Of a stretch of DNA of 28,240 nucleotides, positions 4,670 to 28,240 are shown in pieces. Position 1 is the stretch's first letter, and every line of letters begins with the position of its first letter. The stretch is taken from positions 1 through 28,240 of IMG/VR virus record IMGVR_UViG_3300032331_003035. One strand, 5' to 3'. The notes beneath the pieces were generated by a model, which was not told where the DNA came from, did not search any database, and saw nothing but the letters and a program-made list of their open reading frames with translations. This DNA is from a virus. Made by a program: the position numbers and the translations under genes.

Positions 4670-6529
4670 ATGGACGCATCACAAAAGATATTGTCAGACT
4701 TAACAGTTTACATGAAGTACGCTAAATTCGTACCAGAACTAAACAGACGTGAAACATGGGAGGAATTGGTAACCCGTAATATGAACATGCATATTAAAAA
4801 ATACCCATCTCTAAAAGACGAGATTAAAGAAGTATACAAAATGGTATATGATAAAAAGGTATTACCTTCAATGAGGTCAATGCAGTTTGGTGGTAAACCA
4901 ATTGAGATTTCTCCAAACAGAATCTACAACTGTGCTTACTTACCTATTGACCACTTGGATGCATTTTCGGAGTCAATGTTCCTATTGTTAGGTGGTACGG
5001 GTGTTGGATATTCAGTTCAAAAACATCACGTTGAAAAATTACCTGAGATTAGAAAACCAAAATCAAATAGAACAAGAAGATTCTTGATTGGTGATTCTAT
5101 TGAAGGATGGGCGGACGCAATTAAGGTGTTAATGAAATCTTATTTCGGTGAAAACTTATCAAATCCTGAATTTGATTTTTCTGATATCAGACCAAAAGGA
5201 GCTCAACTTGTAACATCAGGTGGTAAAGCCCCAGGTCCTCAACCTTTAAAAGATTGTATTCACAAATTAAAAGGTATGTTGGATGCAAAAGAAGATGGTG
5301 AAAAACTAACTCCAATTGAAGTTCATGATATGGTATGTCATATTGCTGACGCTGTGTTAGCTGGTGGTATCCGTAGAGCGGCACTTATTTCTTTATTCAG
5401 TGCTGACGACAACGAAATGATTTCTTGTAAATCAGGTTCATGGTGGGAAAAAAATCCACAAAGAGGTAGAGCGAACAACTCAGCGGCACTTGTTAGACAC
5501 AAGATTACAAAAGAATTCTTCATGGATTTATGGAAACGTGTTGAAGCGTCAGGAGCAGGTGAACCTGGTATTTACTTTACAAACGATAAAGATTGGGGAA
5601 CAAACCCATGTTGTGAAATCGCATTGAGACCAAACCAATTCTGTAACTTATGTGAGGTAAATGTTTCTGACATTGAATCACAAGAAGACTTAAATGCTCG
5701 TGTTAAAGCTGCGGCGTTCATCGGAACATTACAAGCGGGTTACACTGACTTCCATTACTTGAGAGACATTTGGAGAAGAACAACTGAGAAAGATGCGTTG
5801 ATTGGTGTATCTATGACAGGTATTGGTTCAGGTGTGGTTTTAGGTTATAATATGAAAGAAGCTGCGAAAGCGGTTAAAGAAGAAAACTCAAGAGTTGCTG
5901 AATTGATTGGTATTAACAAATCAGCTCGTATGACAACTGTAAAACCTGCGGGAACAACTTCATTGACGTTGGGAACATCATCAGGAATTCACGCTTGGCA
6001 CAACGACTACTACATCCGTAGAGTACGTGTTGGTAAGAATGAGGCAATCTACAATTACTTGGTGACAAATCACCCTGAATTGGTTGAAGATGAATTCTTC
6101 CGTCCACATGATACAGCGGTTATTTCGGTTCCACAAAAAGCACCTGAAGGAGCTATCTTAAGAACTGAAAGTCCTTTCCAATTGTTAGAACGTGTTAAAA
6201 AAATTACACAAGAGTGGGTTAGACCTGGTCACAGAACTGGTTCAAACAGTCACAACGTATCTGCAACTATCAGTTTAAAGGCTGAAGATTGGGAATTAGC
6301 TGGTGATTGGATGTGGGAAAATAGAGACTTCTATAATGGATTATCTGTATTACCTTATGATGGTGGAAGTTACATTCAAGCACCATTTGAAGATTGTACT
6401 GAAGAAGAATTTGAAAGATTATTTTCAAAACTTCACTCAATTGATTTAAGTAAAGTTATTGAGTTACAAGATAACACTGATTTAAGCGGAGAATTGGCTT
6501 GTGCTGGTGGGGCTTGTGAGATTAAATAA
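4670..6529 (+). CDS. nrdJ: adenosylcobalamin-dependent (class II) ribonucleotide reductase
   Basis: The enzyme would reduce ribonucleotides to deoxyribonucleotides for phage DNA synthesis, making a thiyl radical with vitamin B12 coenzyme. The key residues are visible: Cys88 (IYNCAY), the active-site N-x-C-x-E set Asn312/Cys314/Glu316 (NPCCEI), Cys325 as partner of Cys88, and the C-terminal swinging-arm pair Cys611/Cys616 (CAGGACEIK). The spacings Cys314-Cys325 (11) and Cys611-Cys616 (5) equal those of the Lactobacillus leichmannii enzyme (C408/C419 and C731/C736). At 619 residues it is about 120 shorter than that 739-residue enzyme. No small subunit or activase gene is nearby, which also argues for class II. 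It ends the replication block and is followed by a terminator-like hairpin. Confidence 0.87.
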   Translation: MDASQKILSDLTVYMKYAKFVPELNRRETWEELVTRNMNMHIKKYPSLKDEIKEVYKMVYDKKVLPSMRSMQFGGKPIEISPNRIYNCAYLPIDHLDAFSESMFLLLGGTGVGYSVQKHHVEKLPEIRKPKSNRTRRFLIGDSIEGWADAIKVLMKSYFGENLSNPEFDFSDIRPKGAQLVTSGGKAPGPQPLKDCIHKLKGMLDAKEDGEKLTPIEVHDMVCHIADAVLAGGIRRAALISLFSADDNEMISCKSGSWWEKNPQRGRANNSAALVRHKITKEFFMDLWKRVEASGAGEPGIYFTNDKDWGTNPCCEIALRPNQFCNLCEVNVSDIESQEDLNARVKAAAFIGTLQAGYTDFHYLRDIWRRTTEKDALIGVSMTGIGSGVVLGYNMKEAAKAVKEENSRVAELIGINKSARMTTVKPAGTTSLTLGTSSGIHAWHNDYYIRRVRVGKNEAIYNYLVTNHPELVEDEFFRPHDTAVISVPQKAPEGAILRTESPFQLLERVKKITQEWVRPGHRTGSNSHNVSATISLKAEDWELAGDWMWENRDFYNGLSVLPYDGGSYIQAPFEDCTEEEFERLFSKLHSIDLSKVIELQDNTDLSGELACAGGACEIK

Positions 6530-9126: not shown

Positions 9127-12100
9127 ATGGGTCAATCATATAGAATAAGAACGGAGTTAGGAGTTAATAAAACAATCAACATTCAACTTGACCAAGAGTT
9201 TGAATTTTTAGAGATTTTATCTTTAAAACTCCAACAAGAAGATGTCTACATAAAAAGTTGTGCGGAGTACGGAGTTGTTGTTGGTAGAGTTACCGCAAAT
9301 AATGGTTTTGGATTACCAAATGCTAGAGTTTCAATCTTTATACCAATAGATTCAATAGATGAATCTAATCCTTTAATTTCTAGTATATACCCATATAAAT
9401 CACCAAATGATAGGAATGAAGATGGTTATAGATATAATTTACTTCCATACGAACAATCATATTCAACTCACGCAGCCACAGGTACGTTACCAACAAGATT
9501 AGATGCATTAACAGGTAGTACTGCAATAGAAATATACGACAAATATTATAAATTAACTGTAAAAACAAATGACAGTGGTGATTACATGATAATGGGTGTA
9601 CCACAAGGTCAACAGACGTTAGTTATGGACGTTGATTTGTCAGACATCGGTGAATTTTCTTTAACCCCACAAGATTTAATAAGAATGGGTCTTGCCAGTG
9701 AAGCTCAAGTTGCTGGTAATAGATTTAGAACATCAAACGATTTAAATTCTTTACCTCAAATTGTTAATTTGGTTAAACAATTAGAAGTCTCTCCACTTTG
9801 GGGTGACCCTGAATTGTGTGATATTGCAATTAATAGAGTGGATTTTGATTTAAGAGATGAAGCAAACATTGATATTCAACCCACAGCAACTTTTATGGGT
9901 TCTATTTTTTCAACATCAGACGCCTTTAGAGTTAGAAAAAACTGTAAACCTCGTGACAACATGGGTAATTTATGTTCACTATCTACAGGACCTGGACAAA
10001 TTCTATCAATAAGACAAACTATTGCTCAAGATGAAGATGGCAATCCTGTTTTAGAACAATTTCAGTTAGAGCAGGCGGGTAATATTATTGACGGTGATGG
10101 AACTTGGTTAACAGAATTACCAATGAATTTGGATTATTATATTACAAATGAATTTGGTGAAAAAGTGTTATCAAATGACCCGACTGTTGGTATACCAACT
10201 AAAGGAAAATATAGATTTAAAATTAAATGGCAACAACCTCCAACATTGAGTGAACAAACAAGAAGACCTTATTATCTTTTACCAAATATTAAAGAGTATG
10301 GTTGGAGTGTTAATAGTCCAGTTGACCCTACTAATTATGTGTCAACTTCTAATGAATATAAACAAGCACATAGTTCTTATTATTTTGGTTTAGCTTGGAG
10401 TGGATACACAGACGGATTTACAAACGCAACTCAAAAAACCAAAAGGTTAAATGAAGTTATAAATTGTGAAGACACATTTTATCAATTTGATTTTAACAGA
10501 GTATATACTCCATCAATGTTGATGACAGAATTTAAAAAAGGTGCTAGAGGTAGATTTATTGGTATAAAGGAAATTGATAGTCAAGAGTGTGAATCAAGTG
10601 TTAATAAATTTCCTGCAAATGATGGATTTAGAAACTTTGATTTATTATTTTTTATTTTTTCAATATTGTTTACGGTAATTCAAGTTATTACTTTACCAAT
10701 AATTTTACAGGCACATATATTAATATTTTTATATAACCTAGTTTTTAGGTTCATATGTGCAATATGTCAGGCGGAGATTAGAATATTTAAATGGTCAGTA
10801 AGACCATTTGGATGGATATGTAGGGCATTAAAAATTAATTGTGAAAAGAAAGATTATACAATAAGACTACCAATGATTACATATCCCGACTGTCAATCAT
10901 GTGATTGTAAATCTGATATACAAACAACAAGAGCAAACACTCTTCAAAACCAAGCACCAAATTCTACAGGTAATGGTTTCTTGAGTTATTTTTCAGCACC
11001 ACAATACTATAATGTTGCGTGGGAACAATATTATGTTGGTAATGCTCCAGAAGACGTTCAATATTTATCAATAATGTCAAGTGAAGCTTTAGGTGGATTT
11101 GCTAGCTCCGCGGCAATAGCTAATTCAAATTGGTATAAATTACCAATTTCATCGGTGTATAACCTACCAAGTAATAATGGAAATTTTGCTTTCACATCTA
11201 GAAGTTTACCACTTGGTGAAAGAATAAATTTATTTAATCAGAGAGGTAATTTTTTTGTAGGTTTAAACAGAATTAGAGTAACTTTTGCTAAAAGTTCAAA
11301 CATTGGTAAATACCATTATGATAATACCATTACAGTAATTTCACCAACACAGTATAATTCTGGTGATTTATTAACATTTATAAACCCTTCAAGCTCTAAG
11401 GATTTAAATTACTTATATAGTGCAACTACAATAACAGGAATAACTCAAGGGATTAGTGGGCAATCATATAATTCTACCGCCTCTACTACGGTAAATGTTA
11501 CCTATGCAACTACACAATATTCAGATAATACCGTTTCATATTCATTACCATATGGTTCTGACAATACAACATATCAATTTCCATCTGATATTGAATATTA
11601 CCAAGTTGTTACCGCAATAACACTATCCCAAGCTGCCTTAATATGGAATACTGGGACAACAGCAGAACAGTTTCCAAATGTTATAAATGCACCATCAGTA
11701 ATAAATGAATGGTATAATAGTGGCGGTAATGATTTTATTGTTACACCATATTTACGTTCAGTAAATCCTTTACAATTTTATCAAGACTATGAAAATCAGT
11801 ATATTTTAATTTTACAAAGAGGAGTTGACCCATATTCTCCAAAATATGTTAACGAATATGATGTGAGTATTTTATTCGGTAAACCTTTGGGTAGTCCTGG
11901 ATTTACAGTTACCGCTACGACAAGATTAAATATACCTATACAAAAGTTAAGTGCGGGGTACTCAACTTCAGTACAATCTCATACAAATCAAACGTTTATT
12001 ACTTATCAATCATATTTCTTTAAACCTGGTATTCCTGGTAGTACAATTGTTGGTCAACAATATACAGGATTTAGTACAAGTAATATTGCGTATTATGGTG

Positions 12101-14124
12101 CTTTAGATAGTACAAAATTACCATCTCTTAATTCACCACCAGAGTATATAGGGGCGTCACCAAACAAAGTAATAAGTGTTACAACAAATGGATTTTATGA
12201 TTCGGCAAACAATTCTGCCAAGTATGATGATTCTGAAGATGTTTCAGGGTTAGGTATTATGACCATAAACAACTATGTTGTTGGTACAACTTATGGAAGT
12301 ACTTCTTGGCCATTTAATATTGCACCCCGTAATTATTATACTCAAATATTATGGGTTACCATACCAACATCGCCTTTTCAATCGTTATTGTCAATTAATT
12401 TTTCAGTTAGTAATTTGAATGTTATGAGAACAGATAGATTACCAAGTTCTGATATTCTTGATGGGGGTTCTTGGATATCAAATCCAGCACTATTACAACA
12501 AAATTTAAATTTTGCGATATATCAAATTTCAGATAATGGTGAAATTTTATCGGGACCTAATTCAACAACAGGAGCAAGTCAAGTTACGCCAGACCTTGGA
12601 GAACTACCAAATGCTGCGAGAGTTTTAGAAAGTTTTAATTGTGAAACCATGGTTGGATTAAAATGTTATGAAGGTTTTGGAAGTTCATTTCAAATTAATC
12701 CTTCTTGCCCAGAAGCTGATGCGGTTGATAAAGGATGTTATATGTTTATGAGAAGACCATTACTTGATTTAATTAAAGATTATGGGACGTTTGCCGAGTG
12801 GGGTTTTAGGTTTAGATTTTTCTATGGGTTATGCCGAGGAGTGTTATCACAAACATTTGCAAATAATTGGATAAACGGTTCATTGTATATGTTCCCAATT
12901 CAAGTAGATACTTTTTACGACACCAATAATAAACCAAAATCACCAGTATTTTGTAACACATTGGCGTATTTTGATTTTGATACTACTAATTTTTATTATA
13001 GAAGCAGTCCTTATGATTCATTTAACAATAAATTTAGAGGTAGAGATGCAAATGAAGATGGGGCGGTTAACAATAGAAATTTAATGTTCCCGACAACAAT
13101 AATGAATTTAGGGTTTAAAGATATAATATATTCTGAATTATCATTTGACCCATCAACAAGGGCTTATGTAATACCTGATATTAATCCTACTAGTTATTCT
13201 GACCCATCAGACCTTGTTAATCTTTTTGTTATTTCAAGAATAACGGATGAAGGATTTTTGGCGTCCATTATTTCTGTTGGTGATAACTCTATTGACCAAT
13301 TATTTTCAAGACCTCAAGGCAGTGGTACATTGTCACTTTTTAGTCCACAAAAAAGAGTAGATGGGGACTTTGCTCAGTTATTATCAATTAACAGTGAAAT
13401 TGGTAATATTAGTTTTTCACCTGAATTTTATGAAATTTATGCAGGCACGACAAATAACCCAACACAAATATTAGGTACCGCAAATAATCCTACAATAGCT
13501 GTTTGGTTTTCATCAACAACTGATAATTTACAAACAAAAGATTACCTAACTCCAGGTCGAATTGATTTTAGGTCTAACAATAATTCTGCTTATTATCCAT
13601 ACAATTATGGTATTAAATCTCAAGTAGTGCCATTTTACCAATGGAAATTAAGTAATACGAGTACAATATTTGGTAGTCAATATAATACATGGGGAACAAG
13701 TTATGCTGATATTGTTCAGAACAAAGCATATCAATCATTGGATAGAACAGAGATTACAACACCATCATATTTTATTAGTAACAATTTAAGTTCAAGTCCA
13801 ACAATTGATGACTTAGGTAAACGAGGATATATTTTTAGTTCTGGTTTTTGTTATGAAGGTGTTACTGCAGGTGGGGCGTATTCATATGTTGATTGTTCGG
13901 GTAATACTCAAACAGGTAGTGTTGCTGGTGTTACGGTAAAATACCAATCAATTAATTTTGGTGTAATAACACCAACTACAACTCCACCAACTTTGGTATA
14001 TAGCACACAATCACCACGTTCGTCAAAATTCATTGTTGGGGCACCATTTCAATTTTATTTTGGTACCGTTAAAGGTGCAAGTGCTTTAGATAAATTTAAA
14101 ACAAAATACTCAGTAGTTGAATAA
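9127..14124 (+). CDS. giant virion/baseplate protein with beta-sandwich N-domain and hydrophobic segment
   Basis: I do not recognise this 1665-residue protein as a named family. Its place after gp25- and gp6-like genes and its size suggest a baseplate or tail-tip component. Residues 49-170 look like a carboxypeptidase-regulatory-like beta domain (VVVGRVTANNGFGLPNARVS, later NDSGDYMIMGVPQGQQTLVM). Around 506-546 lies a strongly hydrophobic stretch (LLFFIFSILFTVIQVITL, then IILQAHILIFLYNLVF), long enough for one or two membrane helices. It is followed by aromatic/basic residues and a Cys-rich patch (CQSCDC). The rest is a long Ser/Thr/Asn/Tyr-rich beta-type sequence with scattered Cys (CETMVGLKC, CPEADAVDKGC). 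There is no signal peptide. It might be a membrane-interacting injection component, but that is inference. The next gene overlaps its stop by 8 bases. Confidence 0.75.
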   Translation: MGQSYRIRTELGVNKTINIQLDQEFEFLEILSLKLQQEDVYIKSCAEYGVVVGRVTANNGFGLPNARVSIFIPIDSIDESNPLISSIYPYKSPNDRNEDGYRYNLLPYEQSYSTHAATGTLPTRLDALTGSTAIEIYDKYYKLTVKTNDSGDYMIMGVPQGQQTLVMDVDLSDIGEFSLTPQDLIRMGLASEAQVAGNRFRTSNDLNSLPQIVNLVKQLEVSPLWGDPELCDIAINRVDFDLRDEANIDIQPTATFMGSIFSTSDAFRVRKNCKPRDNMGNLCSLSTGPGQILSIRQTIAQDEDGNPVLEQFQLEQAGNIIDGDGTWLTELPMNLDYYITNEFGEKVLSNDPTVGIPTKGKYRFKIKWQQPPTLSEQTRRPYYLLPNIKEYGWSVNSPVDPTNYVSTSNEYKQAHSSYYFGLAWSGYTDGFTNATQKTKRLNEVINCEDTFYQFDFNRVYTPSMLMTEFKKGARGRFIGIKEIDSQECESSVNKFPANDGFRNFDLLFFIFSILFTVIQVITLPIILQAHILIFLYNLVFRFICAICQAEIRIFKWSVRPFGWICRALKINCEKKDYTIRLPMITYPDCQSCDCKSDIQTTRANTLQNQAPNSTGNGFLSYFSAPQYYNVAWEQYYVGNAPEDVQYLSIMSSEALGGFASSAAIANSNWYKLPISSVYNLPSNNGNFAFTSRSLPLGERINLFNQRGNFFVGLNRIRVTFAKSSNIGKYHYDNTITVISPTQYNSGDLLTFINPSSSKDLNYLYSATTITGITQGISGQSYNSTASTTVNVTYATTQYSDNTVSYSLPYGSDNTTYQFPSDIEYYQVVTAITLSQAALIWNTGTTAEQFPNVINAPSVINEWYNSGGNDFIVTPYLRSVNPLQFYQDYENQYILILQRGVDPYSPKYVNEYDVSILFGKPLGSPGFTVTATTRLNIPIQKLSAGYSTSVQSHTNQTFITYQSYFFKPGIPGSTIVGQQYTGFSTSNIAYYGALDSTKLPSLNSPPEYIGASPNKVISVTTNGFYDSANNSAKYDDSEDVSGLGIMTINNYVVGTTYGSTSWPFNIAPRNYYTQILWVTIPTSPFQSLLSINFSVSNLNVMRTDRLPSSDILDGGSWISNPALLQQNLNFAIYQISDNGEILSGPNSTTGASQVTPDLGELPNAARVLESFNCETMVGLKCYEGFGSSFQINPSCPEADAVDKGCYMFMRRPLLDLIKDYGTFAEWGFRFRFFYGLCRGVLSQTFANNWINGSLYMFPIQVDTFYDTNNKPKSPVFCNTLAYFDFDTTNFYYRSSPYDSFNNKFRGRDANEDGAVNNRNLMFPTTIMNLGFKDIIYSELSFDPSTRAYVIPDINPTSYSDPSDLVNLFVISRITDEGFLASIISVGDNSIDQLFSRPQGSGTLSLFSPQKRVDGDFAQLLSINSEIGNISFSPEFYEIYAGTTNNPTQILGTANNPTIAVWFSSTTDNLQTKDYLTPGRIDFRSNNNSAYYPYNYGIKSQVVPFYQWKLSNTSTIFGSQYNTWGTSYADIVQNKAYQSLDRTEITTPSYFISNNLSSSPTIDDLGKRGYIFSSGFCYEGVTAGGAYSYVDCSGNTQTGSVAGVTVKYQSINFGVITPTTTPPTLVYSTQSPRSSKFIVGAPFQFYFGTVKGASALDKFKTKYSVVE

Positions 14125-17774: not shown

Positions 17775-18683
17775 ATGGCAATCGGCTCATACGGAACAAT
17801 TAGACCTTCAGACGTATCACCTGAAGATGTACAAATTATAATGAACTACACACCATCAAGGGATGTTACGGATAATTTTATCCTTACAGAGCTTGACGCA
17901 CAGACATTATTAAAACCTTATTTCAATAATACACAAACAGGTGGAAACGCAGATGTTGAAATTTTGGGTGGATTATATAACTTAACATTACCAGCAGAAC
18001 AATTTAACGCTCTTGGGATTTATACTTTATATTTAAGACCTGCTCAAATTAGAACTAGAATTACAGATTGTGGTGTGTTAAGTGCATTACCAAATGTTAA
18101 GGGTATTATAATTGATATCACAAACGTACCTGTACAATTCCAAAATAAATTTGTACCACAAGGATTGGTAGGGTTTAGAATTGAATACTTAAATGCTGAC
18201 GGTTCAAAAATACCTAATTTCTTTAGAGTTGTCACATCATCATTCTTCTGTGAACCAGTTGTAACAAATGAGATTAATACAACACAAAAATCTATTAGAT
18301 ATAGATATGTTGATGGTAGTTCAAATTTAATATTTTTAACTTTATCACCATCATCTTCACCAACGAATAAGCCAAATGCGACACCATTTATTGGACAACC
18401 TGACCAAAGTATAATAATTAGTAATACGTTTTTTAATCCTGTTACATTAGAAATTGATATGGTTGAGTACGATATTTCGTCTCTTGCAATTGCACTTTAC
18501 GGTAATCAAACCAAATCTATTGATGACGGTATCTACACAATTTACGACGCTGAAAATAACATTTACAGACAGTACAACTTGTATGAAATTAGAGACCAAT
18601 TTAATGCATTACTTTATGAGGTTAGACAAAGTAGAGGAAATAATATTGATTTTAGTAAAAACTTCACAACGATAACAACTTAA
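17775..18683 (+). CDS. unrecognised baseplate/tail protein (302 aa)
   Basis: I do not recognise this 302-residue protein. The N-terminus (MAIGSYGTIRPSDVSPEDVQ) contains a short helix. It is followed by a beta-rich core with strands around VEILGGLYNLTLPAEQFN and IYTLYLRPAQIRTRITDCGV, and a C-terminal helix-rich tail (YNLYEIRDQFNALLYEVRQS). There is no signal peptide or membrane segment. It begins downstream of the repeated AAACTATTTATAA motif and ends in a TAATG overlap with the gp7-like gene, so the two are probably translated together and may assemble together in the wedge. A wedge subunit or connector role is the best guess from position only. Confidence 0.7.
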   Translation: MAIGSYGTIRPSDVSPEDVQIIMNYTPSRDVTDNFILTELDAQTLLKPYFNNTQTGGNADVEILGGLYNLTLPAEQFNALGIYTLYLRPAQIRTRITDCGVLSALPNVKGIIIDITNVPVQFQNKFVPQGLVGFRIEYLNADGSKIPNFFRVVTSSFFCEPVVTNEINTTQKSIRYRYVDGSSNLIFLTLSPSSSPTNKPNATPFIGQPDQSIIISNTFFNPVTLEIDMVEYDISSLAIALYGNQTKSIDDGIYTIYDAENNIYRQYNLYEIRDQFNALLYEVRQSRGNNIDFSKNFTTITT

Positions 18684-21667
18684 TGGCGGTAGATATAAAA
18701 GATACTAAATATTTTTACCCACCAAGACCAGGTAATGGAGCGGGTACCTTCTCTGACAACATTGTAGGATTACAAACTGTTGAGGGTGGAGGACTTACGC
18801 AAGGTAATTTTGAATTTACCACTGGTGTAACAGAAAAGGTTAACAGAGTCTTTAATGTAGGGGCGTTCTCTGAACCTATGTCTTTGGACATGATGGGTAT
18901 TGATAGTTTAGAGGAGAGTAGAAGAATTATGGCAACCCAATTCAGGGTTTATCCAAATTATGATATTTCTCAAGTTCTTAACTTTTCAATGTATGGTTCA
19001 CTGTCTAAAAGATTTAGTGTTTCTATAACAAGAATTATTAATTATTTTCCTGCGTCGTTAGATGTAATGTTTAACAATGATGACTACACTACAGGTAATA
19101 CTGCTTATGACATTGTTTATGACTCTCAAAACGATGAAACTTATTTTAAAGTAAATGTTGATAGGATTAACAATCCTTTAGATATTGATTATTCAATTAG
19201 TGCTGCAACTAATCTATCAATTAGAGAAATTGAAGTATCTCCATATAGAAATTTATATAACACATATCTTGATTATTGTGTTAGTATTAATGATAACATC
19301 TTTGAAGTACTTTCGTTTACACCATCGGAAACATTATCTTCGGGATATATTCAATTTTATGTTTCAGGGGCGCCATTTGGAACTACGGCAACCACACTTA
19401 ACGATGATTTCCAAATTAGACCAAACGATTTTATTGTTGATAAAGTTTTTCAAGAGTCATTTGATGAAATTGAAAAGTTTTTGGTTAATAGATTAGTTAG
19501 ACCTGAATATACTGCGGTATTCCAAGTACCACAACAAAATGAATTTGGTCAAACATATACTGAATATCAACAAGTAACTTGGCCAAAACAAGGTCCTTGG
19601 AATTTGGACATTCGTTCATTCTTATTTGATAGATACCTTGAACAAATTCAAGCGATTGCGGTTAATTTGGATTCATTCAAAACAAATTTAATTTCAAGGT
19701 TTTTAATTACGGATTCATTAAAAGAATTTGACACATTAGGTCAAAAAGTTGAAAAAATATTTCAAATTTATGGTAGAAGTTTTGACCAAATAAAACAATT
19801 TATTGATGGTTTAGCTTATATGAATTCTGTTAATTATAACCCATCAAATGACATACCTTCTGAATTATTAGTTAACTTGGCTAGAACATTGGGATGGTCA
19901 TCAAACTTTTCTCCAATAACAAACGATGATTTTTTAAGTTCTGTTTTTGGTAATACATCAACTCCAACGTATCCTGGATATGCTAGGGCTTTAACACCAA
20001 CAGAATTAAACTATGCTTATTATAGAAACTTAATTCTTAACGCTTCTTACCTTTTCAAGTCAAAAGGAACAAGAAGGTCAATTGAATTTTTATTAAGATT
20101 AATTGGTGCTCCTGATTCGTTAATTGAATATAATGAACACATTTATTTAGCTGACCAAAGAATTAATCTTGACCAATTTGAAACTCAATGGGCTAGTATT
20201 TCTGGTGGTACGTATGCTAATAATGTTCCTTCTTATTTAGCAGGTGAAACTTATAAAATTAAAGGACAGTTATATACGGCATTTACCTCAACAGCAACCT
20301 ACCAAGACGTTAACATTACATTAAAAGATTACCCAATGGATGCCGAAGGTTATCCAAACGCACCAGCAAATACAGAAACATTCTTTTTCCAAATAGGTGC
20401 AGGTTGGTATGAAACAACTCCACAACATAGAAGCCCTGACCAAGTTCAACTTACAGGTAATGTTTATACAGGCCAAAACTATAGTATCCAAACTCAATTA
20501 ACACCATTTACCTATGGTCAAACTTATCTTAATAGATATAGAGATTTTCCATACATGAATGAAGGATTTAAATTACAAAAAGTTGTTGATAATAATAAGT
20601 CATGGTTATCTGATGATGATAGAATTAGAGTTTCAACTCAAGGGGATTACAATGCATATTATTACGTTGATAATGAGAAGTTAGTATTAAACGTTAAGAA
20701 TGTTGATATATTTTTAAATCCTGCTCAAGGTATTGTTTATGATGTTTGGAACCAATCAGTTCAATATGACTATCCAATTCCTGAATCAGGTCTAACTGTT
20801 GGTTATCCTGTACCAGGCGGGGTTGATTGGACTTATGTTAACCCTGAACCAAAGAAAAAAACATTCTTTGAATTTTCTCAAACATTTTGGGAGAATATGA
20901 TTAACACAAGAAATAGACAATATATCACTGATGGTAAAACAGGTGGTTACCCTACATTACAATCAATATTTTGGAAATACATTGAATCCGAACAAACCGT
21001 TGGAATACCAAACAACAAATATACGTATCAAAAATTAATTGATTACGTAAATGGTATTGGTCCTTATTGGACTAAGTTGGTTGAACAAATGGTTCCAGCA
21101 ACAACTATTTGGAATGGCGGGGTTAGATTAGAAAATTCAATCTTTAATAAACAAAAATTTGTTTATAGAAGACAAAGAGGTTGTCAATTTATTCCAGTCC
21201 CTGTTGACCCATGTTATATCATTTCAAACATATTTGATTATACATGTAATACTGAATATGCGGACTTTAACATTTATCCGTGGTTTAATGGTGATGTTAT
21301 GGTATCAAACTTTAGTAGTATTTTAGGTAATAGAGTTAATAACATGTTGGCTCAAAGCGGATTAACGTTAAATCAATGTTATGAAAACTCAGTATTAACC
21401 GATTGGTATGTTGATTTAACTATAAATGGAGAAGTAATAATTAAAGATTCTTTCTATACTGGTTATGGTATTTCAGATGTACCAACTAATACACAATGGA
21501 GAAACGCTTTAATAAATTATTTACCTCAATTATATAATTATGGGTATACATATTACCTAAATGGTAATACATTAACAATAACAAATTTGGCGTGTTTAAC
21601 TCAAAATATAGTGGATACTGTTTCATTAAACGTTGGAATAAACATTAACATTAACTGTACACAATAA
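18683..21667 (+). CDS. large baseplate wedge protein, possibly gp7-like (994 aa)
   Basis: The protein is close in length to T4 gp7 (1032 residues), the large wedge protein encoded after gp6. The middle (about 320-480) is alpha-helical: RYLEQIQAIAVNLDSFKTNL, VEKIFQIYGRSFDQIKQFID, DIPSELLVNLARTLGW and LNASYLFKSKGTRRSIEFLL. The last has the GT-(K/R)-x2-I-E-F-x-LRL pattern that I associate with tail protein I and with gp7-like wedge proteins. Both flanks are beta-rich, and the C-terminal quarter has a Cys-containing beta domain (CYIISNIFDYTC) and a segment resembling a small adhesin module. TAATG overlaps occur at both its start and its stop. The baseplate role is likely; equivalence to gp7 is an inference from length, order and the helical motif. 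Confidence 0.72.
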   Translation: MAVDIKDTKYFYPPRPGNGAGTFSDNIVGLQTVEGGGLTQGNFEFTTGVTEKVNRVFNVGAFSEPMSLDMMGIDSLEESRRIMATQFRVYPNYDISQVLNFSMYGSLSKRFSVSITRIINYFPASLDVMFNNDDYTTGNTAYDIVYDSQNDETYFKVNVDRINNPLDIDYSISAATNLSIREIEVSPYRNLYNTYLDYCVSINDNIFEVLSFTPSETLSSGYIQFYVSGAPFGTTATTLNDDFQIRPNDFIVDKVFQESFDEIEKFLVNRLVRPEYTAVFQVPQQNEFGQTYTEYQQVTWPKQGPWNLDIRSFLFDRYLEQIQAIAVNLDSFKTNLISRFLITDSLKEFDTLGQKVEKIFQIYGRSFDQIKQFIDGLAYMNSVNYNPSNDIPSELLVNLARTLGWSSNFSPITNDDFLSSVFGNTSTPTYPGYARALTPTELNYAYYRNLILNASYLFKSKGTRRSIEFLLRLIGAPDSLIEYNEHIYLADQRINLDQFETQWASISGGTYANNVPSYLAGETYKIKGQLYTAFTSTATYQDVNITLKDYPMDAEGYPNAPANTETFFFQIGAGWYETTPQHRSPDQVQLTGNVYTGQNYSIQTQLTPFTYGQTYLNRYRDFPYMNEGFKLQKVVDNNKSWLSDDDRIRVSTQGDYNAYYYVDNEKLVLNVKNVDIFLNPAQGIVYDVWNQSVQYDYPIPESGLTVGYPVPGGVDWTYVNPEPKKKTFFEFSQTFWENMINTRNRQYITDGKTGGYPTLQSIFWKYIESEQTVGIPNNKYTYQKLIDYVNGIGPYWTKLVEQMVPATTIWNGGVRLENSIFNKQKFVYRRQRGCQFIPVPVDPCYIISNIFDYTCNTEYADFNIYPWFNGDVMVSNFSSILGNRVNNMLAQSGLTLNQCYENSVLTDWYVDLTINGEVIIKDSFYTGYGISDVPTNTQWRNALINYLPQLYNYGYTYYLNGNTLTITNLACLTQNIVDTVSLNVGINININCTQ

Positions 21668-24258
21668 TGGCATCATTTTATTATAACATATCTGTAACTG
21701 GTGATTGTTCATCAACATCGTCTGGAATAGCATCTCTATTACCATATGGTGGAACTCCTCCATATACGGTTGAATGGGTCGAGCCAAATTTAGGTACCGA
21801 TATTGTTACTACTTCACCATCAATTAGGGCTTCTTTAAGTGCCGATACATACGGTGTTAGAGTTAATGATAGTACTCTACCTGTTAACCAAGAATTTTAT
21901 ATTAACATACCCATATCGTCTGGGGTGTGCACAAGCATTTTAGGTGTTCAAAGTACAATTTGCGGTTTAAATAATGGTTTTGTTACAGGTTCATCTACTT
22001 CTGATTATTCAAGTACAAACTTTTATTTGTATTCAGGTGATGGTGGGTATATAACATCTGCAATTACAAATACATCTGAAGTTGTGTTTAACAATTTAAC
22101 TGCGGGTACCTATTACATGGTTGCCGAAGATTTAGGTGGTTGTTCGGGTGAAAGCCAAAATTTTATTGTTGAATCATCCACACCTCTTAGTTTTGGGTTA
22201 TATGTGGTTCCAAACTCAAGTTGCGGTGGTACACCAATAGGTAAAATAACGGTAACAGGACAAACTGGTTCCGCACCGTTTACTTATTTATGGAGTAATG
22301 GATTTACTGGTGCAACTATTACAGGATTAACTGAAGGACCATATTCGGTACAGGTTACCGATAGTTTAGGATGTATTACAAGTGAAAGTGCAACCATAAC
22401 TAACATACCACCAATCGGACTTGGACAATTCACCGCAGTTCAACCATCTTGTTTTGCTGCGGATGGGGCTCTTACAATACAGATAACAGGTGGTACTGCG
22501 CCGTATTATTATTCTGCATCAACAGGTAATGTTTCAATTCAGTATTCAACCTCATGGACCATATCTGGATTATCTTCAGGTGATTATAGTTTTTCAGTTA
22601 CCGATTCTGCCTTTTGTAATATTTTGGCTGGTAGTACATTGTTAACACCTCTTGGTATTGCTTCAATTACAATCTCTAGTCAAGGTACAACGTGTTCAAG
22701 TAACGCCGCGTCAATTACGGTATCAGTTAACGGTGGTACATCACCTTATACGTATACTTTAATTTATCCTGACGGTAACACAACAAATGTTATTAATTCG
22801 CAAACATCACAAGTTTTTAATAATCTATCAACAGGTACATATAGTGTTGCGGTACAAGATGCTGCAGGTTGTTCGTACATGGATGAGATTACATTATTTG
22901 CCACAAACACATATACAATATCAACTGAAGTTACAGGTACAACATGTAATCAAAATAATGGTTCAGTCTTAGTTACAAGGACTGAAGGTGGTGCGTCACC
23001 TTATGATTATTCTTTGGATGGTATTCAAAACGTTATTGATACAACATTATCTGCGGTTACGTTTACAAACGTCGCTTCAGGACAACACACAATAACGGTT
23101 ACGGATGCCACAGGATGTACACAAACAAGCCAAGTATACGTTACTCAAAGTGAGCCGTTAGATTTTACATTATATAGTACTTCTTGTGGTGAGGGTTCTG
23201 ATGGAACATTAACCGCATTAATATCAACAGGAACACCACCATTTACATTTGATTGGTCAAATAATGTTCAAAACAATCCACAACAAATTCAAGTTACGGG
23301 ATTAACTGCTGGCACCTACAGTTTAACTGTTGTTGATAGTGTTGGTTGTTCTTTAACTAGAAGTGCGTTAATTGATTGTCAAGGACTTTACGTATCATAC
23401 CAAACGTATATTATGGGTGGTGAACAATTTAATATTCAATCACAAACTAAATACGGTTTACTTCAAATGTTAAATGAAGGTTTTAATGATTTAACTAATG
23501 ATAAAGTTAGTTGTGATTTAATTTCTGCGGTTTATGGTGTTAAAATTTCTGTTAATCCTATGGGATTAACCACAAGTCAAAATTTCTTTACAGGAACAAC
23601 TTTAGTTAGTGCACCGAGTGATAATCTTTATTATGATACTGTTAATGATTTATTATTAACAATACCTGGTGTCGGAGGTGTCACAATTGATGCGGTAAAT
23701 AATCAAATAACAATAAGTACAGACCCAAATAACACAACATTAAATGGACAAGAAATAGTCATTGAATTAACTATAGTTTATGACATTATGTGTTTGTCTT
23801 GTGATTTACCAACGCCAACTCCAACAATAACAACAACTCAAACAACCACACCTAGCCCAACACCTACAATACCTATTGTTAGCCCAACAAACACACCAAC
23901 TAATACTGTAACTCCAAGTGTTACACCAACAAATACTGTAACGCCAACAATGACAAAAACTCCTAATCAAACTCCAACACATACACCAACTCCAACCATA
24001 TCTTATAGGGCTCATAGTTTAGTCACATGTTCTGCTTCATGTGGTGGAGGTATTTGTAGATGTGTTTCGCCAACGTCAACAATTACAGTTTATACCGCAC
24101 CAAACATAAGTAGCGTATGGGCATCTGGTGCAATAATTTATACTAACTCATCATTGACCACATTATTAGATAACGTATTTTCTCAACATAACGGAGCTAT
24201 GTATATATTCAATAATGGTGTTGCGTATTATGAATGTAATTTAGGTAGCGGATGTTAA
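21667..24258 (+). CDS. tail adhesin with seven SprB-like repeats, Thr-Pro stalk and Cys-rich tip
   Basis: The 863-residue protein is modular. Residues about 10-570 hold seven related beta domains of 65-80 residues. Each has a GG-x-PY-x-Y/W-type strand and a closing G-L-x-aG-x-Y-x-V-x-V-x-D-x2-GC motif, for example ITGLTEGPYSVQVTDSLGC (218-236), FNNLSTGTYSVAVQDAAGC (384-402) and VTGLTAGTYSLTVVDSVGC (543-561). This matches the SprB repeat, typical of Bacteroidota gliding adhesins. An unrecognised domain follows (571-713), then a Thr-Pro stalk (714-779), then a Cys-rich terminal domain (781-863; CSASCGGGICRC, ending GSGC). There is no signal peptide, so it would be a virion protein, probably a receptor-binding adhesin. 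It starts in a TAATG overlap with the preceding baseplate gene. Confidence 0.78.
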   Translation: MASFYYNISVTGDCSSTSSGIASLLPYGGTPPYTVEWVEPNLGTDIVTTSPSIRASLSADTYGVRVNDSTLPVNQEFYINIPISSGVCTSILGVQSTICGLNNGFVTGSSTSDYSSTNFYLYSGDGGYITSAITNTSEVVFNNLTAGTYYMVAEDLGGCSGESQNFIVESSTPLSFGLYVVPNSSCGGTPIGKITVTGQTGSAPFTYLWSNGFTGATITGLTEGPYSVQVTDSLGCITSESATITNIPPIGLGQFTAVQPSCFAADGALTIQITGGTAPYYYSASTGNVSIQYSTSWTISGLSSGDYSFSVTDSAFCNILAGSTLLTPLGIASITISSQGTTCSSNAASITVSVNGGTSPYTYTLIYPDGNTTNVINSQTSQVFNNLSTGTYSVAVQDAAGCSYMDEITLFATNTYTISTEVTGTTCNQNNGSVLVTRTEGGASPYDYSLDGIQNVIDTTLSAVTFTNVASGQHTITVTDATGCTQTSQVYVTQSEPLDFTLYSTSCGEGSDGTLTALISTGTPPFTFDWSNNVQNNPQQIQVTGLTAGTYSLTVVDSVGCSLTRSALIDCQGLYVSYQTYIMGGEQFNIQSQTKYGLLQMLNEGFNDLTNDKVSCDLISAVYGVKISVNPMGLTTSQNFFTGTTLVSAPSDNLYYDTVNDLLLTIPGVGGVTIDAVNNQITISTDPNNTTLNGQEIVIELTIVYDIMCLSCDLPTPTPTITTTQTTTPSPTPTIPIVSPTNTPTNTVTPSVTPTNTVTPTMTKTPNQTPTHTPTPTISYRAHSLVTCSASCGGGICRCVSPTSTITVYTAPNISSVWASGAIIYTNSSLTTLLDNVFSQHNGAMYIFNNGVAYYECNLGSGC
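21703..23376 (+). repeat. seven SprB-like domain repeats (protein level)
   Basis: Approximate domain limits in residues of the 863-aa protein are 13-80, 88-168, 178-245, 255-330, 334-411, 415-492 and 497-570. Repeats 3, 5, 6 and 7 carry the clearest closing GTYSVxVxDxxGC-like motif; repeats 1 and 2 are more diverged. The copies differ strongly at DNA level, so this is an old array rather than a recent expansion. Confidence 0.7.
23806..24003 (+). repeat. Thr-Pro-rich stalk (first copy)
   Basis: Residues 714-779 of the adhesin consist of alternating Thr-Pro with Asn, Ser, Val, Met and Gln at intervening positions ([20 protein letters not shown]). The composition is mucin-like, probably an extended flexible stalk. 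The same kind of sequence is much longer in the 723-aa protein downstream. Confidence 0.85.
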
Positions 24259-24276: not shown

Positions 24277-24585
24277 ATGGTACAAATAAGATTAACGGAA
24301 ATATCGGGAGGAACTTACCCAATAGATGTGATACTTTCAGACATCTACGGTAATAATGCGGTTAATCTTGCAACAATATATCCTGGGCCTGTTCCACCTG
24401 TTCAAACATATAATTCAACAATCCCATCAATATTTGAAACAGCTCCTGAAGTGATGTTAACTTTGATTGATGCTAACGGTTGTAAATTATTTAAAATCTT
24501 AGAATGTACTTACGGTTGTGCGTTTGAAATAACGATTGAATTGGCTTCGTGTATCGTTAATATTAACATCGCGCAAGTAACTTAA
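24277..24585 (+). CDS. small unrecognised virion-associated protein (102 aa)
   Basis: This 102-residue protein is not recognised. It is predicted beta-rich, with a proline-rich bend (YPGPVPPVQTY) in the middle and four Cys in the C-terminal third (CKLFKILEC, YGCAF, ASC). No signal peptide or membrane helix is seen. It lies 18 bases after the SprB-like adhesin gene and 76 bases before the Thr-Pro protein, so it belongs to the fibre block. Its start (VQIRLTEISGG, then YPIDVILSD) loosely parallels the first domain of the next protein ([10 protein letters not shown], then GPFNVYLDS), suggesting a shared small beta module. It could be a chaperone-like or capping protein for the fibres, but nothing specific supports that. 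Confidence 0.6.
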   Translation: MVQIRLTEISGGTYPIDVILSDIYGNNAVNLATIYPGPVPPVQTYNSTIPSIFETAPEVMLTLIDANGCKLFKILECTYGCAFEITIELASCIVNINIAQVT

Positions 24586-24661: not shown

Positions 24662-26833
24662 ATGACTACATACACTATAACAGTTACCAATAATGCTGTC
24701 GGTTGTAATAACGAAATTGAACAGCAAATATCAGTAACTGGTTGTTCCACATATATTGTCAGATTAACTTCTAACTCAAATGCACTAGGTCCATTTAATG
24801 TTTATTTGGATTCTACTTTAATTTATTCTGACCAAACAAGAAATGAAATGTTGGATGGTGTTGTGGTTACTATTGAATGTGGTACGCCAACTCCAACTCC
24901 AACACCTACTATTACACCGACAACTACACCAGTTAATACAACTCCAACTAATACTCCAACTTTAACTCAAACGCCAACAAATAGTGTAACGCCAACAAAT
25001 ACCACAACTCCAACTCTTACACCAACAAACACTGCTACTCCAACTCTTACACCAACACCTACAGTAACAATAGGTTTAACACCTACAACAACCCAATCTC
25101 AAACACCAACAACAACCGCTACTCCAACAAATACACCTACTAATACTGAAACTCAAACACCAACGCCAACAACTTCAGAAACACCAACAAATACGCCTAC
25201 CAATACTGAAACACCAACAAATACTCCAAGTGAAACACCTACACAAACTCCTACAAATACTGAAACACCAACACAAACTCCAAGTGAGACTCCAGGAAAC
25301 ACGCCAACTAATACTTCAACGCAAACAGTAACACCAAGTAATACTGCAACGCCAACTAATACGGTAACACCTACTGTAACTGAGACACCAACTAATACGC
25401 CAACTGCTAGTGAAACTTCAACACCAACTGTAACACCAAGTAACACTGAGACACCAACACCTACTGTAACTGAGACACCAACTAACACACCAACAGCTAA
25501 TGAAACTTCAACACCAACTGTAACACCAAGTAATACTGCGACACCGACTAATACTCAAACACCTACTGTTACTGAGACACCAACTCAAACAGTGACACCA
25601 AGTGTTACTGAAACTCCTACTGAGACGCCAACAAATACGCCAACAACTACTGAAACTCCAACAGAGACACCAACAAATACTCCTACTGTTACTGAAACTC
25701 CAACGCAAACTCAAACACCAACAAATACTTTAACGCCAACGCCAACAACAACACCAAATAGAAACTTTATAGCGTCTAACTTTAACACTACGGGTGGTAT
25801 GAGTATTACATTCCTACCAACAATAGGATTTACAATTACAGGATATGTACCACCAGTTGATTATACTCAAACCAAAAACGCATTCCATGATGTAATTCCA
25901 AGTGGAAGTACTTTAGATGTGTTAACAAGTGGTACTACAAGAGGTACACTACAATTATTAATTAATACAATACTAATTGATACTAATACTTTAGATGCTG
26001 GAAGTACTTGGACTATAACATTTAATAGTGATTTAAATGAAAATGACATTGTTGAAATCAGGTTGATGGATGCTCCAACACCTACACCAACACTTACACC
26101 AACAAACACTCAGACACCAACAGTTACTGCAACAAATACTCAGACACCAACAGTTACCGCAACAAATACTGAAACACCAACGGTTACACCAACAGTTACC
26201 GCAACAAATACACCAACATATACTCAAACTCCAACACATACCGCAACACCAACTCCAACATCACCACCGTTCCAAGCATATCTATTCATTGACCGAAATG
26301 ACGCAACAATTAGAACTGCGTTAAATAACTATATGTTATCACAAGGAAGTGCATTTAGAGGGTTTAATATTAATAACGTTACTCAAACTCAAGCAACATT
26401 TGACGCTCAAATGAACGCATATATTGCTTATAGTGGTTGGGGTGTTAGTGAACCTTCAATATTTACCGCACCAATCTCAACAACATCAGGTGGTAGTGAT
26501 GCGTACGGTAATCCAATAGTTGCTTACAAATTCCAAACAATTCAAGTTCCAAATACCACAGTTCCTGCGGGTGAAGTTGCTTGGTATACATGGATAGTTG
26601 CGACAGGAATGACAAATGGACAAAAATACTCAACCATTAAAAATGGTAATGCTAATCCACCAATAACTGATACGGTTGTTAATACATTAACAAATAGTTT
26701 GGTTGTAAATTATAGTGGTTCAACAAATATACCAGCAGGAACATATAGAGTTTATACAACAAAAACTGCTTCAGGATTGAATATTACAAATTCTGGTAAT
26801 AATTGGTATTTCCAAGGAGGAACATTAGTATAA
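24662..26833 (+). CDS. multidomain tail protein with long Thr-Pro mucin-like stalks
   Basis: The 723-residue protein has five parts. An N-terminal small domain (1-74) with two Cys pairs-like positions comes first. A Thr-Pro stalk of about 290 residues (75-365) follows, built from motifs such as [15 protein letters not shown] and TPTVTETP. A beta-rich middle domain (366-471) includes [20 protein letters not shown] second stalk (472-536) contains three [10 protein letters not shown]-type units. The C-terminal globular domain (537-723) runs from [20 protein letters not shown] to [20 protein letters not shown]. There is no signal peptide. The architecture of globular heads on stiff or glycosylatable stalks suits a receptor-binding or virion-surface fibre. 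The globular domains are not recognised. The stalks contain recent DNA duplications. Confidence 0.72.
24884..25756 (+). repeat. Thr-Pro-rich stalk (long copy)
   Basis: These are residues 75-365, almost wholly Thr, Pro, Asn, Glu, Ser, Val and Gln with Pro every third to fourth position. The DNA is a degenerate ACA/ACT-CCA repeat. The codon-aligned 90-base units at 25367-25546 are the clearest tandem copies. Confidence 0.88.
25367..25546 (+). repeat. 90-base tandem duplication within the Thr-Pro stalk
   Basis: Unit 1 is 25367-25456 and unit 2 is 25457-25546. By hand comparison they differ at 7 of 90 positions. Five differences are silent and two change a residue (Ser to Asn, Glu to Ala), so 28 of 30 residues are the same. 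The period is a multiple of three and the boundary is in frame. Confidence 0.85.
26075..26269 (+). repeat. Thr-Pro-rich stalk (second copy of the 723-aa protein)
   Basis: These are residues 472-536. They include tandem 30-base units encoding [10 protein letters not shown] twice and a variant [14 protein letters not shown], at about 26104-26210. The stalk separates the middle domain from the C-terminal domain. Confidence 0.82.
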
Positions 26834-26876: not shown

Positions 26877-28240
26877 ATGAGCTTTCAATATAAAAACCCA
26901 ACTTCGTCCACATTATTACAAGCACCTGATTCGGTGTTAAGAACTAATGATACTGGTACTAATTTTAGTGTGCTTGGTATTGGTGGATACATGGAGGTAT
27001 TTTATTTATCTGATTTAGATTGGATAATACCACCACAAACATTAATTGATGGAGGGGCTGTTTTATATTCAGGTAACTCAATCCCAATAAGTTTTTATTA
27101 TAATGTTCCATATGCGGTTCCAAATATTTTAAATCTTAATAACGACGGTATTTCTTCTGGGCGTAGAAGATTAGGTATGCAAGTTTATGTTCAGGAAACT
27201 GATACAGTATACCAATATACTATGACAGGATTTACGGCAATGTGGGACGCTGCTGAAGCGGTAGGGTCAATTGTTGATACTGGTAATGGTTATGAAGCTT
27301 ACGATGATACCCCTGAAGGTATTACGTTTGTTGATGCTTGGACAGGTTCTACTATTGAAGGTGTAAGCGGTGTTACAAAGAATGATGCCAGATGGCAAAT
27401 ATTTTGGGGTAGTGATGTTCAAGTTACTGGAGGAACATATTTTTCAGGAACACAAGAATTAGATTTATATAATAGTACTGGTGGTACAGTTACAATCACA
27501 GGATTTACAGGTACTGTCACAGGTGGAACATATAATAGTGGGACAGGTACGCTTACTTTAAATAATAGCGATGGTTCTTCAGTTAATGTTTCAGGATTTA
27601 CATCAGGTGGAGGTGGAAGTCCTCTTACAGTTTATGATGCCACGTCAGGTGTAACGGCAACAAACGTTACAGGTATGACTTTTTCGGGTGCTTCTGTTAT
27701 TGATAATGGAGGTGGAAACGTAGTAATTACATTTACAGGTGGAACATCAGGTACTTCGGGTATAAACGGTACTTCAGGAACATCAGGGTTAAGTGGTGTT
27801 GACGGAACTTCAGGTTCAAGTGGAACAGATGGTAGCTCAGGAACATCAGGTTCAAGCGGAACAGATGGTAGTTCAGGAACTAGTGGTAGCTCAGGAACAG
27901 ATGGTTCTTCGGGAACTAGCGGTAGCTCAGGAACTTCAGGTTCAAGTGGTACGGATGGTAGCTCAGGAACATCAGGTTCTTCAGGAACAGATGGTTCATC
28001 AGGAACTAGTGGTAGCTCAGGTACGGATGGTTCTTCAGGAACTTCAGGTTCAAGTGGAACAGACGGTTCTTCAGGAACTAGTGGTAGCTCAGGTACGGAT
28101 GGTTCTTCAGGAACTTCAGGTTCAAGTGGTACAGACGGTAGCTCAGGAACTAGTGGAAGCTCAGGAACATCAGGTTCAAGTGGAACAGATGGTAGCTCAG
28201 GAACATCAGGTTCAAGTGGTACAGATGGTAGCTCAGGAAC
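26877..28240 (+). CDS. collagen-like tail fibre protein (3' end outside window)
   Basis: The ATG at 26877 opens a frame that stays open to the end of the window (454 complete codons), so the gene is 3'-truncated here. The N-terminal part (1-180; MSFQYKNPTSSTLLQAPDSV, with many aromatic residues) is unrecognised and probably attaches to the tail. Residues about 181-287 are beta-rich with Gly/Thr strands (GGTYNSGTGTLTLNNSDGSS), a pattern common in phage fibres. From residue 289 an unbroken Gly-X-Y repeat runs to the window end: GTS, GSS, GTD, plus single GIN, GLS and GVD triplets near its start. No proline occurs in the repeat. Collagen-like shafts trimerise in phage tail fibres, so a receptor-binding tip probably lies beyond the window. 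Confidence 0.82.
   Translation, partial: MSFQYKNPTSSTLLQAPDSVLRTNDTGTNFSVLGIGGYMEVFYLSDLDWIIPPQTLIDGGAVLYSGNSIPISFYYNVPYAVPNILNLNNDGISSGRRRLGMQVYVQETDTVYQYTMTGFTAMWDAAEAVGSIVDTGNGYEAYDDTPEGITFVDAWTGSTIEGVSGVTKNDARWQIFWGSDVQVTGGTYFSGTQELDLYNSTGGTVTITGFTGTVTGGTYNSGTGTLTLNNSDGSSVNVSGFTSGGGGSPLTVYDATSGVTATNVTGMTFSGASVIDNGGGNVVITFTGGTSGTSGINGTSGTSGLSGVDGTSGSSGTDGSSGTSGSSGTDGSSGTSGSSGTDGSSGTSGSSGTSGSSGTDGSSGTSGSSGTDGSSGTSGSSGTDGSSGTSGSSGTDGSSGTSGSSGTDGSSGTSGSSGTDGSSGTSGSSGTSGSSGTDGSSGTSGSSGTDGSSG
27741..28240 (+). repeat. collagen-like Gly-X-Y repeat with 36-base period
   Basis: About 55 consecutive Gly-X-Y triplets are visible, running to the window end. The dominant unit is 12 residues (GSSGTSGSSGTD), 36 bases, with synonymous codons mixed among copies. 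The 59 bases at 27999-28057 are repeated exactly at 28071-28129, an offset of 72 bases (two units). Confidence 0.9.

Follow-up and report, generated by a model that had tools for sequence, protein, structure and literature searches.

SprB-Type and Ig-Like Repeats in Bacteria and Phages

SprB repeats are typical of Bacteroidota adhesins, in which they form long arrays. The phage repeats described here resemble those of the Bacteroidota SprB adhesins in sequence, spacing, cysteine pair and closing motif, whereas the protein that carries them has a length of 863 aa, a fixed set of seven repeats and no visible secretion signal. Chains of similar Ig-like domains also build up GhpA, the grappling-hook protein of Aureispira sp., a member of the Bacteroidota, but this is a bacterial surface hook of thousands of residues. 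Among phage proteins, Hoc, T5 pb10 and the neck whiskers share with the present protein the Ig-like domain and the core G-G-x-x-P-Y-x-Y ... G-x-Y-x-V-x-V-x-D; these, however, are head or neck proteins and were matched more weakly than SprB.

Phage proteins with the label 'SprB repeat' are already deposited in UniProt, an example being A0A6J5LD72 of an uncultured Caudovirales phage, which is named only by its domain and for which no described function was found. Our literature search for SprB repeats in phage tails returned no paper, and a paper on gliding filaments contained no information about repeats. The view of a seven-repeat stalk that is fixed throughout a clade and whose tips can be exchanged is new; it is drawn from a viral sequence of 28,240 nucleotides (IMG/VR record IMGVR_UViG_3300032331_003035; hereafter the window) and its relatives. 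In place of the long bacterial arrays, an adhesin repeat appears to have become fixed here as an obligatory seven-unit tail stalk.

Domain Organization and Family Membership

The open reading frame at 21667-24258 (plus strand, as are all window features given below) encodes the 863-aa protein. Seven homologous domains (D1-D7) of ~72-88 residues each fill residues 1-572 (21667-23382); the array thus lies where it had been predicted (21703-23376), with slightly wider actual limits. After the array come a conserved domain of 140 aa, a linker rich in Thr and Pro, and a tip of 85 aa; this C-terminal part (residues 573-863) was absent from the original prediction.

The Pfam SprB profile (PF13573) matched the protein in five stretches with E=1e-24 and 86 bits, exceeding the curated cut-off of 28 bits. 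The strongest stretch is D4 (residues 252-328, 22420-22650; 36 bits); D3 (residues 175-246, 22189-22404) and D7 (residues 497-572, 23155-23382; 28.6 bits) are also above the cut-off, and D5 (residues 333-411, 22663-22899; 21.4 bits, E=7.8e-6) and D6 (residues 416-493, 22912-23145; 24.1 bits, E=1.1e-6) lie under it as single matches. A six-frame scan of the window gave five SprB matches, three of them above the cut-off (at 22204, 22432 and 23182), and the same kind of scan gave none in 14 control genomes. The divergent D1 (residues 1-88, 21667-21930) and D2 (residues 90-168, 21934-22170) were not caught by Pfam and were linked to the other domains by profile-profile comparison (D1 to D7 with E=2e-11 and to D3 with 1e-8, D2 to D3 with 1e-4). 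Together, the Pfam match and these links bear out the prediction that seven SprB-type domains make up most of the protein, and Pfam SprB matched all 32 orthologs scanned. The opening cysteine is present in all seven repeats and the closing one in six; the closing GC motif, predicted for all seven domains, is exact in five, with FC in D4 and LP in D1. Most of these cysteines are invariant across 32 orthologs, and the opening cysteines are spaced by 76-87 residues, against a bacterial median of 76.

A match to generic phage Ig-like domains instead of SprB had been named as the outcome that would speak against the original prediction. The SprB cut-off was passed, but phage Ig-like families were matched too (Hoc-like head decoration PHROG 2973 in four stretches with E=6.5e-16, a decoration protein with 2.5e-5), so this comparison is only half discriminating. 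SprB repeats and phage Ig-like repeats look like one superfamily, neighbours in sequence space; judged by sequence, the cysteine pair and the closing motif place the 863-aa protein on the SprB side, and SprB is its best family.

The protein lacks the marks of a gliding adhesin. Pfam gave no match to a T9SS sorting domain in the window protein, and no signal-peptide character was seen by eye at its N-terminus (MASFYYNISVTGD); weak matches to the sorting domain PF18962 in 6 of 32 orthologs (best 2.3e-4) are read as Ig-like cross-matches. Since no secretion features were seen and the very long array of the SprB gliding adhesin is replaced by seven repeats, the protein is not a gliding adhesin. 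In the bacterial loci with relatives of the repeat, 20-26 repeats were counted within ~2,060 aa (at most 26 in 2,066 residues).

Predicted Fold

In an AlphaFold model of residues 1-714, based on 32 orthologs (pLDDT 80.6), seven Ig-like sandwiches are followed by an alpha/beta domain at the C-terminus; the pTM was 0.36, and therefore the relative orientation of the domains is not given by the model. In a structure comparison, this modelled chain of Ig-like sandwiches found its nearest PDB fold in GhpA (pieces in 9flp, 9fly and 9flw; E down to 8e-21, 16-21% identity), which was not listed among the sequence-profile matches. The top viral structural match was A0A6J5LD72 (UniProt/BFVD), a protein of 714 aa, as compared with 711, that is 34% identical along its whole length and has the same predicted fold.

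The conserved alpha/beta domain (residues 573-711, 23383-23799) is ordered from residue ~586, with a pLDDT of ~70-85 from residue 590, and may serve in oligomerisation or attachment. Profile comparison linked it weakly to the C-terminal end of the 994-aa protein encoded upstream (E=0.0036, compared with 0.1-0.7 for non-overlapping stretches and reversed controls), and in both the helices and strands are predicted to follow one another in the same order, the model of the 994-aa protein being poor. We treat this kinship as a lead only.

Genomic Context

The SprB-repeat gene is located in a baseplate/tail-fibre cluster, with gp25-like and gp6-like genes upstream and a collagen-like fibre gene downstream. 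The upstream genes as a whole (gp32-like ssDNA-binding protein, UvsX-like protein, exonuclease, DnaB-like protein, B12-type ribonucleotide reductase, gp25-like and gp6/J-like proteins) indicate a T4-like contractile phage. The B12-type ribonucleotide reductase (4670-6529) shares 68% identity with its counterpart in Microcystis phage Mel-JY01 and 63-64% with those of a Vibrio and an Oceanospirillum phage, whereas the gp6-like and helicase genes are <30% identical to their best listed phages; these values suggest that the reductase has probably been exchanged between unrelated phages. The tail cluster also contains a 1665-aa open reading frame (9127-14124) with no Pfam or PHROG match.

The gene directly upstream (18683-21667), itself downstream of the gp25-like and gp6/J-like genes, encodes a 994-aa tail protein that is probably a baseplate wedge, in the position of P2 gpI or of the large T4-like wedge protein. 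Over residues 340-500, a helical stretch, this protein resembles the large protein of the corresponding cluster in Mel-JY01 (5e-9); the resemblance to Flavobacterium phage immuto is weak (0.002). Its structure model is too poor to be used (pLDDT 32), so the wedge identity rests on synteny. Thus, the predicted position directly after a baseplate gene holds as far as the overlap is concerned (TAATG at 21665-21669, where the TAA stop of the upstream gene ends on the A of the ATG), but the word "baseplate" reflects synteny and a weak similarity of one helical segment, with no Pfam or PHROG family match.

Downstream of the SprB-repeat gene lies a gene for a conserved 102-aa protein (24277-24585; 43 matching rows among the downstream open reading frames of the clade), which is probably a single Ig/SprB-like domain (profile match to D7 with E=2.6e-5, probability 75%). 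It is followed by a second tail fibre (24662-26833) with a conserved 75-aa N-terminus (36 rows), a long Thr/Pro stalk encoded by repeats and a variable tip (32 rows), and by a collagen-like tail fibre (26877-28240; Pfam Collagen 3e-24, PHROG collagen-like minor tail 4e-21) that is cut by the window end.

For the gp6-like protein, six relatives were found in INPHARED at 26-28% identity: Flavobacterium phage immuto (four records), Mel-JY01 and the 484-kb LR756508. No SprB domains were detected in the corresponding region of these phages, and since they share the gp6-like gene, tails of this type do not generally require the stalk.

Conservation Within the Phage Clade

Scans of IMG/VR with the tail gene and with the SprB protein yielded 248, 316 and 273 related stretches, and the best 80 of each were used. 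Among the best 80 loci fetched with the tail gene of a distant member, 77 contain the array, and in the other three the sequence stops inside the tail gene or within ~150 bases of it. The repeat profile detected seven repeats in 73 of the 77 and fewer in the remaining four. The SprB gene directly follows the tail gene for all 94 distinct proteins, with the one-base overlap retained in 60 and a start within ~20 bases in the others, and the orthologs align nearly without gaps over 711 aa at 57-79% identity. Because the array is found in every locus checked that extends past the tail gene, and at a constant gene position, our comparison of these sequences indicates that the SprB-repeat protein is a fixed core gene of a large uncultured clade of freshwater tailed phages and not a private capture.

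In a tree of 104 repeats, each of the positions D1-D7 formed its own clade (SH-aLRT 90-100), so that a repeat groups with those at the same position in other phages; the deeper forks lack resolution, the alignment having only 72 columns. The array must therefore have been assembled before the clade diversified and has undergone no turnover since. The suggestion that the domain was captured from a host is accordingly retained in part: an ancient capture from Bacteroidota is likely, whereas a recent one is rejected on the grounds that each repeat position is conserved and the seven-repeat array fixed across the clade.

C-Terminal Extensions and Tips

The alpha/beta domain is the natural end of the protein in most members of the clade: 66 of 81 distinct complete proteins end <=5 residues from this core, and 15 are longer, 12 of them by >40 residues. 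One of these 12 long extensions is a tipless Thr/Pro stalk, and at least seven unrelated tip families were recognised among the others, each usually preceded by a Thr/Pro-rich linker. The families are the Cys-rich tip of the window, a propeller-like tip (L008, L015) and those of L009, L053/L133/L187, L156/L143, L191 and L026. In the window, the optional extension consists of the linker (residues 712-778, 23800-24000) and the 85-aa Cys-rich tip (residues 779-863, 24001-24255), which was detected in a single close relative, L036/L006 (89% identical), the others bearing unrelated tips or none. A Pfam search of the tips gave nothing useful, and the resemblance of one tip to a beta-propeller was under any cut-off. 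In L035, the propeller-like tip of L041 was found directly 3' of the SprB protein in another frame (13080-13330, 90% identical); this displaced tip may have been broken or frame-switched at the Thr/Pro-coding DNA, or may be an assembly error.

Tips of all families are attached at one C-terminal junction, and in L077 a separate, neighbouring fibre carries a tip of the L053 type (37-38% identity). Such exchange at a single junction implies a surface-exposed, distal C-terminus, and hence the SprB array is probably a stalk of fixed length and not the receptor-binding part. The variable portion of the protein is the extreme C-terminal tip, which lies beyond the repeats, and the suggestion that the repeats themselves bind the receptor is not supported. 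The swappable tips are the concrete receptor-binding candidates, and their distribution can be compared with host data.

Host Prediction

A four-repeat alignment was too divergent for scanning; one repeat of the ortholog L053, corresponding to D3, was used instead as a query against a collection of bacterial and archaeal genomes that represents each of 84,980 species by one genome. According to their record titles, the 80 matches retained were all Bacteroidota, with <=59% identity, and many were located on contigs of hundreds of kb. This repeat was chosen as near the SprB consensus, which favours SprB proteins, but the choice does not alone explain 80 of 80. Relatives of the 994-aa gene were not found in the bacterial and archaeal genome collection, hence prophages gave no host.

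The rate of Shine-Dalgarno signals in 239 genes of a 326-kb relative was 5%, against 6.6% in shuffled sequence; for comparison, it was 0% in Flavobacterium phage immuto, 30% in a Microcystis phage and 33% in a Citrobacter phage. The clade showed no enrichment of TAnnTTTG, a promoter motif of Bacteroidota, and the motif is of no help here. The 326-kb relative also carries 12 clustered tRNA genes (L228:6622-13149). The repeat relatives, the absence of Shine-Dalgarno signals and the presence of a Flavobacterium phage among the few gp6 relatives make a Bacteroidota host likely, these three lines being indirect and none of them proof. In this sense the repeats do serve as the host clue that had been expected of them; the clade in question is abundant in fresh water, and no close member has been cultured.

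Proposed Role and Alternatives

The explanation that we favour, at a probability of about 0.65, is that the 863-aa protein serves as a stalk in the virion of a T4-like contractile phage that infects Bacteroidota, composed of a seven-repeat rod, an alpha/beta cap and a swappable tip. Its N-terminal part, or a co-translated partner, would seat the stalk on the baseplate; the seven SprB-type Ig-like domains, whose cysteine pairs may form disulphides, would assemble into an extended rod of fixed length, and the alpha/beta domain would cap or oligomerise it. In a minority of phages, including that of the window, the Thr/Pro spacer would carry the swappable tip, which probably touches the cell surface. 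Such a protein would work like the stalk of a tail fibre or spike, and the combination of a conserved base with a variable, exchangeable tip was indeed found. The weak link of the upstream gene to a baseplate wedge counts against this explanation, as do the low pTM of the model and the lack of SprB domains in the region examined in immuto, Mel-JY01 and LR756508. As most members are tipless, their stalk would act via the alpha/beta domain or purely structurally.

The latter option leads to a less probable alternative, in which the protein is a purely structural joint of fixed length between baseplate and tail fibre, with the repeats as spacers and the tips as decoration that has no receptor function. 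The constant length, the even conservation and the 66 of 81 proteins without an extension are in line with it, yet unrelated domains swapped at one junction, together with a tip family shared with another fibre, are the usual signature of receptor-binding diversification. We consider it improbable that the protein decorates the head or neck and provides weak general adhesion, as Ig-like proteins of the Hoc, T5 pb10 and neck-whisker kind would. The match to the Hoc-like PHROG agrees with such a function, as do the matches of the repeat profile to neck-whisker gp24 (2e-6), decoration proteins (2e-5) and Hoc (0.003), but the gene always adjoins the tail gene within the baseplate/fibre cluster, optional receptor-like tips are present, SprB is the best-matching family, and Bacteroidota proteins are the closest bacterial counterparts in both sequence and structure.

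The original prediction had also raised mimicry or binding of the gliding machinery. In its full form, the anciently captured array would be a clade-wide homotypic docking rod on SprB-type filaments of the host, and the virion would ride the moving adhesin along the gliding track to the injection site. This idea draws on the domain family common to gliding adhesins and on the literature on F. columnare phages, where gliding components have been proposed as likely receptors (PMC7345892). It can be tested, but nothing in the present analysis supports a link to gliding: the repeats show neither diversification nor recent exchange with hosts, and their relatives are spread across many Bacteroidota lineages and do not point to one gliding protein. 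We therefore regard it as very unlikely. That the contig is a piece of a Bacteroidota chromosome, with an adhesin beside a prophage, would suit the typical occurrence of SprB repeats, but viral contigs of the clade, many in number and up to 326 kb long, carry the gene in the tail cluster, which in effect refutes this reading; neither a sorting domain nor a signal peptide was seen in the window protein, and a search of the bacterial and archaeal genome collection revealed no relative of the tail gene. Its probability is negligible.

Other SprB-Like Repeats in Phages

Further SprB-like repeats were encountered in phage genomes. The 642-kb uncultured phage LR756502 encodes a 1670-aa protein (L115:3448-8460) with ~13 SprB-like repeats, nine of which fall in one tight clade; its repeats are mostly close to one another, in contrast to the ancient fixed array of the window's clade. 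Weak SprB matches were also present in a second frame of 829-897 aa, far from the baseplate cluster, in the large relatives L042 (G009:22683-23336), L104 (G002:127123) and L087 (G001:296957). In Citrobacter phage KKP_3664, an enterobacterial T4-like phage, a hypothetical protein encoded after gp12 (L116:3543-6104) has four weak SprB-like repeats, which are possibly a phage Ig-like relative instead of true SprB.
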